IMG/VR virus record: IMGVR_UViG_3300021225_000324
Span: 1-20,074 of that record
Length of the DNA: 20,074 nucleotides
Reading direction: 5' to 3' (one strand)
Origin: a virus
Shown here: positions 18,237 to 20,074 of the stretch, piece after piece
Layout: each line of letters opens with the position of its first letter
Numbering within the stretch: the stretch's first letter is position 1
Notes under the pieces: model-generated
What the model saw: only the letters and a program-made list of their open reading frames with translations
Told to the model about the DNA's origin: nothing
The model's database searches: none
Program-made: the position numbers and the translations under genes

Positions 18237-18520
18237 TTGGCACCAAGCACGACGGAAAAAAGCCACGCTGGAGCCTTCTGCCTGCCGGAACCGTCCAACA
18301 GATCATTTCCGTTCTGGAATTCGGCGCAGCAAAGTACACCGAGAACAACTGGCAGCACGTTGACCGGGGCCCTGAGCGCTACTACGACGCCATGATGCGG
18401 CACGTGCACGCCTGGCGCGATGGTGAGAAAAACGACCCGGAAAGCGGACTGCACCACCTGGCCCACGCTGGATGCTGTTTGCTGTTCATGCTTTGGCTGG
18501 ACGATAGGGGCGTCAAATGA
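18233..18520 (+). CDS. dATP/dGTP diphosphohydrolase N-terminal-like protein (DUF5664)
   Basis: 95 aa. The family pattern is clear: KPRWSLLPAGTVQQIISVLE, FGAAKYTENNWQHVD, YYDAMMRHVHAWRDGEKNDP, ESGLHHLAHAGCCLLFMLW. The E...GE..D.ESG..H..HA arrangement gives metal-binding Glu/Asp/His residues of an all-alpha NTP-pyrophosphatase. Members act on purine deoxynucleotides and in some phages accompany altered nucleotide pools. It overlaps NinG by ATGA. With the MazG-like protein it would be a second nucleotide-cleaning enzyme in this phage. Substrate is inferred from the family name only. Confidence 0.78.
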   Translation: MIGTKHDGKKPRWSLLPAGTVQQIISVLEFGAAKYTENNWQHVDRGPERYYDAMMRHVHAWRDGEKNDPESGLHHLAHAGCCLLFMLWLDDRGVK

Positions 18521-19083
18521 CCAAGCCCGCCAAGTGCAAAGTCTGCCAGTGCGCCTATACCAAGACCAGGCCGCTGCAAACGGTATGCAGCCCACCGTGC
18601 GCCCTTGTGCTGGCCAGGAAAGCCACGGAAAAAACCCAAGCCAAGGAGCAGGCCAAAGACCGCAAGGAGACCCGTCAAAAGCTGGACGCCATGCAAACTA
18701 AGCCGCAGCTGACCAAGAAAGCGCAGACGGCCTTTAATTCCTTTGTGAGAGCACGGGACGCGGGTAAACCCTGCATTTCCTGCGGAACGCCACTGAGCAA
18801 CGAGCCGAACACCTACGATGCCGGACACTACCGTTCAGTCGGCAGCGCACCGAACATGAGGTTTGTGGAGGAAAACTGCCACGGCCAATGCAAGCACTGC
18901 AACAACTACCTGGCCGGGAATCACGTCGAATACCGCAAGCGCCTGGTCGAACGCATCGGCCTGCAAGCCGTGGAGCGCATCGAGAGCGACAACACGGTGC
19001 GCAAATACTCTCACGAAGGCCTGATCGAACTGGCCAAACACTATCGGGCGGAAGCGCTCGCAACCAAGAAAGGTAAATCATGA
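18517..19083 (+). CDS. ninG: NinG (Rap) recombination nuclease
   Basis: 188 aa. The N-terminal zinc cluster is CKVCQCAYTKTRPL...VCSPPCALVLARKA. A long basic helix follows (EKTQAKEQAKDRKETRQKLD), then the second cluster: CISCGTPL, TYDAGHYRSVGSAPNMRFVE, ENCHGQCKHCNNYLAGNHVE, which is HNH-like (AGH...NCHGQC..CN). In lambda, NinG/Rap is a structure-specific nuclease promoting Red and RecBCD recombination. Length is close to lambda NinG (204 aa). Overlaps the 42-aa secreted gene by ATGA. Confidence 0.92.
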   Translation: MTKPAKCKVCQCAYTKTRPLQTVCSPPCALVLARKATEKTQAKEQAKDRKETRQKLDAMQTKPQLTKKAQTAFNSFVRARDAGKPCISCGTPLSNEPNTYDAGHYRSVGSAPNMRFVEENCHGQCKHCNNYLAGNHVEYRKRLVERIGLQAVERIESDNTVRKYSHEGLIELAKHYRAEALATKKGKS

Positions 19084-19222: not shown

Positions 19223-20074
19223 ATGAAACTTCCGGACACACTCGAAGCCATCCAGATCGATGCGCTCATACCCTACGCACGCAACAGCCGAACGCACAGC
19301 GACGCGCAGGTGGCCCAGATCGCGGCATCCATCAAGGAATTCGGATTCACCAATCCGGTGCTGATTGACGGGGGGGGGGGAATCATTGCCGGACATGGCC
19401 GAGTGCTCGCTGCACGCAAGTTGGGCCTGATCGACGTGCCGTGCATCCGACTCGACCACCTGACCGACGCGCAAAAACGCGCTTATGTGATTGCCGACAA
19501 CCGGCTGGCGCTGAACTCCGGCTGGGACACTGAAATGCTCAAGGTGGAGTTTGCCGACCTGCAGGAGCTTGGTTTCGACCTTGAGCTGACCGGCTTTGAC
19601 CTGGACGAGATCAAAGAGCTTCTGGCACCCGTGGGCACCGAAGGCCTGACCGACCCCGACGATGCCCCACCGCTGCCGGAACACCCGCGCACCGTGCCAG
19701 GCGACATTTGGGTGATGGGGAAGCACCGCCTCCTGTGTGGCGACAGCACCAGCGTCAGCGATCTGGAAAAACTTACCGAAGGCCAGCTGGTGGACATGTG
19801 GCTGACCGACCCACCTTACAACGTGGCCTATGAGGGCAAGACAAAGGACGCGCTCAAGATCAAGAACGACGAGATGGGCGACGACCAGTTCCGCCAGTTC
19901 TTGCGCGATGCTTACACCGCAGCCGACACAGTCATGAAGCCCGGCGCTGTTTTCTACATCTGGCACGCAGACTCTGAGGGCTACAACTTCCGAGGCGCTG
20001 CCCAAGACGCAGGCTGGAAAGTCCGCCAGTGCCTGATCTGGAAGAAGTCTAGCATGGTCATGGGCCGCCAGGAC
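19223..20074 (+). CDS. ParB-domain DNA methyltransferase (right-truncated)
   Basis: 284 codons visible; the frame is open at the window end. Residues ~5-95 are a ParB/Srx-type N-terminal domain (DALIPYARNSRTHSDAQVAQ, IAASIKEFGFTNPVLID, IIAGHGRVLAARKLGL). From ~155 the methyltransferase begins (VPGDIWVMGKHRLLCGDS), with catalytic motif IV TDPPYNVAYEG (DPPY at 196-199) and WHADSEGYNFRG. DPPY before a not-yet-seen SAM motif fits a beta-class N6-adenine or N4-cytosine enzyme. Such fusions are common in phages and modify phage DNA. SD-like AAAGG precedes the ATG. The ParB part contains an 11-G run. Confidence 0.87.
   Translation, partial: MKLPDTLEAIQIDALIPYARNSRTHSDAQVAQIAASIKEFGFTNPVLIDGGGGIIAGHGRVLAARKLGLIDVPCIRLDHLTDAQKRAYVIADNRLALNSGWDTEMLKVEFADLQELGFDLELTGFDLDEIKELLAPVGTEGLTDPDDAPPLPEHPRTVPGDIWVMGKHRLLCGDSTSVSDLEKLTEGQLVDMWLTDPPYNVAYEGKTKDALKIKNDEMGDDQFRQFLRDAYTAADTVMKPGAVFYIWHADSEGYNFRGAAQDAGWKVRQCLIWKKSSMVMGRQD
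19370..19380. repeat. 11-base poly-G run inside the methyltransferase ORF
   Basis: Eleven consecutive G encode most of a GGGG stretch (residues 50-53) in the loop between PVLID and IIAGHG. The present length keeps the frame. By reading the other frames, loss of one G gives a stop about 14 codons later and gain of one G gives a stop about 47 codons later. Confidence 0.95.

Follow-up and report, generated by a model that had tools for sequence, protein, structure and literature searches.

Described G-tract switches and the present locus

Phase variation is textbook biology for bacteria. Phase-variable methyltransferases of bacterial restriction-modification systems include the Mod/phasevarions and the polyG loci of H. 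pylori and Campylobacter (PMC12003011; PMC4889913). In the Pgl system of Streptomyces, length variation of a G tract in pglX switches an anti-phage DNA methyltransferase (PMC4365076). Among phages, polyG phase variation is known for the receptor-binding proteins of Campylobacter phages (Sorensen et al., 2021, Cell Rep 35:109214; outlined in PMC11868660, also cited by PMC10877375).

The locus analyzed here is an 11-G tract in a DNA methyltransferase gene of a phage. The window, by which we mean the whole stretch of DNA that was analyzed, is a complete, 20,074-base IMG/VR virus record. As in the phase-variable restriction-modification methyltransferases, a simple repeat in a methyltransferase gene would lead to ON/OFF methylation; however, those bacterial genes serve to switch restriction and regulation in the host, whereas the gene in the window is a phage gene. 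Similarly, pglX is a G-tract-switched DNA methyltransferase in phage-host conflict, but it belongs to a bacterial defence and has a shorter tract (8 G), while in the window the attacker carries the putative switch. With the Campylobacter phages, the locus shares a phage-encoded G homopolymer, length variation and, as inferred for the window phage, population diversity that counters bacterial resistance. In those phages, which are unrelated to the window phage, the product is a receptor-binding protein rather than a DNA methyltransferase. While polyG phase variation in phage receptor binding and G-tract switching in bacterial pglX are known, phage methyltransferases appear to be a new target: no report of a phage-encoded phase-variable methyltransferase was found in the literature searched, coverage of which was partial. 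The G11 run is very likely (probability approximately 0.85) a phage-carried contingency switch for slippage-driven phase variation of DNA methylation. Switching, enzyme activity and methylation were inferred and not measured.

A phage methyltransferase gene with an in-frame 11-G tract

PHROG matches indicated a lambdoid-style gene set in the window, with tail proteins, an endolysin, SSB, a RecE-like exonuclease, replication proteins, NinB and NinG. The NinG/Rap-like gene upstream of the methyltransferase gene (Table 1) placed the latter at the end of the early/replication block. In MW202867, the closest annotated relative, the methyltransferase gene is followed by genes for a DNA-binding protein, terminase and portal. 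No restriction nuclease was recognised among the window genes examined. Because the contig ends within the methyltransferase gene, its 3' part is absent from the window (relatives are ~412 aa); the full 412-aa protein was provided by a 98.6% identical relative, L049.

Table 1. Positions of features in the window.
Feature	Position	Strand	Basis and remarks
NinG/Rap-like junction endonuclease gene, upstream of methyltransferase	18517..19083	+	PHROG 171, 1e-74
ParB-domain / N6_N4 DNA methyltransferase gene, 5' 284 codons	19223..20074	+	Pfam, PHROG 498; last gene in window
N-terminal half of ParB-like domain	19223..19369	+	Per-length translations; out-of-frame copies would make only this part plus a short frameshifted tail
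11-G tract, proposed slippage switch	19370..19380	+	Encodes Gly50-52 and first two bases of Gly53 codon; predicted beta turn; in frame (ON)
IIAGHG motif (ParB box II-like), directly 3' of tract	19382..19399	+	Alignment: I54, I55, A56, G57, H58 and G59 invariant in family
Catalytic motif IV (LTDPPY)	19802..19819	+	Translation WLTDPPYNV; D196, P197, P198 and Y199 invariant; lost if tract out of frame

The translation of the methyltransferase open reading frame, which contains NPVLIDGGGGIIAGHGRVLAARK, met the criterion of a family-profile match: residues 5-284 matched the PHROG 498 DNA methyltransferase at E 5e-114. Matches to Pfam N6_N4_Mtase were above cut-off, both for the window protein (6e-7) and for full-length L049 (5e-24). 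The Pfam ParB_N match was weak (3e-5; 24-25 bits for the window protein and L049, just under the curated cut-off of 26.3), and the N-terminal domain also matched Noc/ParB structures by profile and PHROG ParB-like families at 3e-55. The motif order criterion, DPPY preceding the SAM-binding F-G-G-S-G, was likewise met. DPPY lies in the window and is invariant in relatives; FGGSG, past the window end, was visible in full-length relatives only.

Phage PHROG 498 ParB-domain N6_N4 methyltransferases (e.g., of Streptococcus Javan phages, MW202867) have the same domain order, and the best annotated phage relatives were 44-74% identical to the window methyltransferase. Unlike the window, MW202867, the sole annotated relative read at DNA level, has a mixed-codon loop without a tract. 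As a separate observation, a 17-base string encoding IIAGHG recurs in this record 50 bases downstream in another frame (L194:4147 and 4197), as well as in L073, L083 and L100.

Apart from the tract, no homopolymer in the window exceeds 7 nucleotides; 8-mer G matches in the window numbered 4 against 0.53 expected, a count reached in 0 of 100 shuffles. The context of the tract, GAC-G(11)-AATC, encodes a turn, D-GGGG-I, just 5' of an invariant IIAGHGR. The reading frame is kept at 8, 11 and 14 G, while 10 G leads to a stop at codon 69 and 12 G to a stop at codon 104, both before DPPY. The tract thereby met the criterion of a long in-frame homopolymer of which other lengths truncate the product. 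The initial annotation, made from the sequence alone, had claimed an in-frame 11-G run at the IIAGHG-proximal loop of a ParB-like domain and early stops upon both +1 and -1 shifts, and both claims held. Its statement that family members have a shorter, mixed-codon loop held only in part: tract-free near relatives do use mixed codons (e.g., D-GDNG-I, D-ENGG-I), but for a turn of the same four residues.

An AlphaFold model of L049 (mean pLDDT 70, relied on for the local hairpin only) predicted that the tract encodes the turn between strands 46-48 and 53-56 of the ParB-like domain. This turn appears to tolerate length changes, since an in-frame relative with 14 G (L054) has one extra glycine there.

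In the proposed mechanism, the homopolymer would gain or lose a G during replication; slippage in vivo and its rate are inferred. One length in three would leave the ParB-methyltransferase in frame, and other lengths would stop translation within ~15-50 codons, before any catalytic motif. Since the beta turn occurs both with four glycines (window) and with five (an in-frame relative), a functional enzyme is expected from every third length. By such length switching, a clonal phage population would come to hold particles made with and without modification; mixed lengths within one sample have not been shown. Methylated DNA would survive restriction enzymes that cut unmodified sites, and unmethylated DNA would survive type IV defences, which target methylated DNA, or save a cost. 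The benefit is likely to be bet-hedging against restriction, an interpretation that agrees best with known biology but is inferred from family and context only, without an assay.

Tract length and phase in related phages

A scan of 2.9 million viral contigs (IMG/VR) for G8 or more beside an IIAGHG-type motif gave 47 stretches, 46 of which encoded members of the ParB-methyltransferase family. With one member (L193) added by a relaxed pattern, the tract set comprised 48 records: the window and 47 other IMG/VR contigs. This comparison with related phages, which had been proposed by the initial annotation, thus found 47 other records with a tract at this site, in- and out-of-frame copies among them. 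Tract lengths at the ParB turn were 8-14 G, plus 19 at one contig end. In-frame (ON) copies numbered 28, window included, out-of-frame (OFF) copies 18, and in the remaining 2 the tract was cut by the contig end. Flanks of the tract varied (5', GAC or GAT; 3', A, C or nothing), indicating that the records did not represent one clone. GGG accounted for 130/138 of the first three loop codons, compared with 3/46, 2/48 and 2/48 at neighbouring invariant glycines, and its share of glycine codons was 4% in the window and 4.6% in the catalytic domains of relatives. The tract and its conservation are thus shown.

In all 48 records, every OFF copy included, the downstream methyltransferase frame ran open as far as its stop codon or the end of the contig. 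Median dN/dS of the catalytic part among OFF copies was 0.13, with purifying selection no weaker than in ON copies, which indicated that OFF copies are not decaying. The criterion of otherwise intact OFF copies was met on both counts. ON copies were more common at the ParB turn than the expected one third (28/46), so that selection or a reduced rate of slippage also plays a part; because of relatedness, sequences in these ON/OFF tallies are not independent counts.

Purifying selection on OFF copies, no weaker than on ON copies, supports an alternative explanation in which RNA polymerase or ribosome slippage gives some full-length enzyme at every tract length, and the tract is a dial or recoding signal rather than an on/off DNA switch. 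Transcription can slip on long homopolymer runs. However, a recoding site is expected to fix one length, whereas the lengths scatter over three frames, near-identical phages included, and the frameshifted tails at the ParB turn are short and lead nowhere. This alternative is therefore considered unlikely.

When mapped onto a tree of catalytic domains, the tract label required 7 changes (shuffles, ~36), of which well-supported branches forced at least 6, and the ON/OFF state required 13. These counts indicated that the tract is clustered yet has undergone several gains or losses, and that phase changes often. The gain/loss count is approximate, as some rows are long-branched and two 'tract-free' rows begin at the tract itself. 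Two close relatives, L050 and L061, carry an interrupted tract (GCGGGTGGGGG) and look like locked-ON versions of the gene.

Relative to window-like relatives, five contigs (L013, L026, L032, L048, L029) showed 93-99% DNA identity in their N-terminal halves and only 66-75% in their catalytic parts. The drop occurred at or after the tract and reflects either domain swapping or chimeric assembly. This pattern is what supports a reading in which the tract is mainly a recombination joint for swapping N-terminal and catalytic parts. Such a reading leaves unexplained the pure G composition, the length variation among near-identical phages and the tracts at other sites; moreover, phage mosaicism is ordinary without tracts, and chimeric assembly remains possible. 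We consider it very unlikely.

Seven tract-spanning contig pairs that were at least 99% identical (36.2 kb aligned) contained no indels outside the tract, and in three of the seven the tract length differed (13/11, 11/12 and 11/12). Over 4,048 bases, L038 and L045 were separated by 2 substitutions and two Gs. The out-of-frame L034 differed from the in-frame L046 by 17 substitutions and a single G in 6.9 kb, and L227 differed from L229, both of the C5 family discussed below, by 10 substitutions and a single G in 6.0 kb. These pairs met the criterion that tract length differ between near-identical genomes, and variation in length with almost nothing else changed is thereby shown. Other same-phage pairs agreed in tract length, which indicated that the consensus is reproducible between samples. 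Equal lengths in several such pairs (L007/L020, L002/L041) further indicated that switching is not extreme.

All records are metagenome assemblies without reads, and lengths in single contigs may be off by one G due to library PCR stutter. Short-read libraries are known to stutter at G11-G14. The length differences could then reflect errors of sequencing, PCR or assembly in a tract whose true length is fixed and in frame, an artefact that the initial annotation regarded as its main alternative. The assembled nature of every record speaks for this explanation, as does the fact that several contigs (L024, L031, L062, L069) start or end in or at the tract; in an unselected G14 sample, 46/121 tracts lay near an end of the fetched stretch. 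Against it, dozens of independent samples yielded contigs that contain the tract internally, between flanks that are conserved on either side. Lengths span 8-17 instead of a single value ±1, exact agreement is often seen in same-phage pairs from different samples, and the first C5 site described below shows no preference among the three frames (13/18/13). In view of the related contigs and near-identical pairs, such an artefact is now very unlikely. The phase-variation interpretation of the initial annotation, a mix of modified and unmodified particles, is correspondingly supported; switching within one population and methylation of virions remain unshown.

G tracts at other sites in phage methyltransferases

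A second G11 tract was found in L045, inside a C5-cytosine methyltransferase. The first C5 site was represented by 50 contigs with G10-G17, and the C-terminal part was open in all 44 that were readable. Frames were distributed 13/18/13 (13 ON, 31 OFF), which is indistinguishable from random phase. Assembly breaks clustered at this site, as 5 of the 50 contigs ended within 35 bp of the tract against 0.34 expected; this clustering, like the contig ends at the ParB-turn tract, also counts in favour of the switch reading. Two further sites were found via an unselected set of G14 tracts. One, before DPPY of ParB-methyltransferases, occurred in 43 contigs with 35 distinct flanks (22 ON, 11 OFF); the other, a second C5 site located 3' of motif IV, in 69 contigs with 56 distinct flanks (32 ON, 21 OFF). 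At least 10 of 75 G14 tracts away from ends in the unselected set lay within DNA methyltransferase genes or at their edges. Independent recurrence of tracts at other sites is thus shown. For four tract sites in two enzyme families that are unrelated, the best explanation is that switching was repeatedly selected for.

A control pattern for Walker-A loops with G8 matched 0 contigs. When 84,980 bacterial and archaeal genomes (GTDB) were scanned for a host or prophage copy, none of the 63 pattern matches was in the ParB-methyltransferase family. A search of 401 genomes from the bacterial family to which a Giesbergeria MAG belongs retrieved near-full-length relatives of 62% identity at most, and none of their four motif-readable loops contained a tract.

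These data bear on a neutral explanation, in which G runs expand by polymerase slippage wherever a glycine turn tolerates them and switching brings no benefit. Consistent with it, the turn tolerates different residues, and interrupted forms exist (L050, L061). However, other glycine loops should then be hit too, yet the Walker-A control gave no match and the bacterial-genome matches included none of the ParB-methyltransferase family. Tracts were, moreover, gained at four sites by two unrelated methyltransferase families, and a needed gene would be purged of frameshifts unless the OFF state is tolerated or useful. The neutral explanation is therefore unlikely, and a contingency switch remains the preferred reading.

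A bolder reading, to which we lean only slightly, is that many environmental phages hold a phase-variable methylome, with several methyltransferases that each independently gained a slippery G tract, at differing sites. One phage clone would then yield particles in combinatorial epigenetic states. If the contingency-switch reading is correct, a phage stock comprises more than one epigenetic type, and part of it would pass a restriction barrier that stops the rest; modelling of restriction barriers and of host range would change. The tract sites found provide a ready search key.

In the C5 family (L045:11742-12612 (+), also L207, L218, L232 and L240), one G tract lies within two overlapping genes that are read in different frames; one encodes the C5 enzyme, the other an unnamed protein with LNPxWVEWLMGWP at its C-terminus. 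The upstream part of the latter protein was without a Pfam match. Both genes shared the same phase in 40/40 contigs that were readable for both (13 both ON, 27 both OFF), so that one tract would switch them together. Because two frames overlap there, the downstream dN/dS of the C5 gene, which was near 0.9, could not be used as a test of constraint.

Single contigs (L045, L231, L375, L385 and L396) were also observed to carry two G-tract methyltransferases of different classes, an arrangement that would allow combinatorial methylation states. Additional DNA methyltransferases had G14 tracts at positions unlike any of the above: close to the C-terminal end of the reading frame in one of the N6_N4 type (L354:6590-7627 (-)), and close to the N-terminal end in one of the C5 type (L370:4524-5846 (-)).
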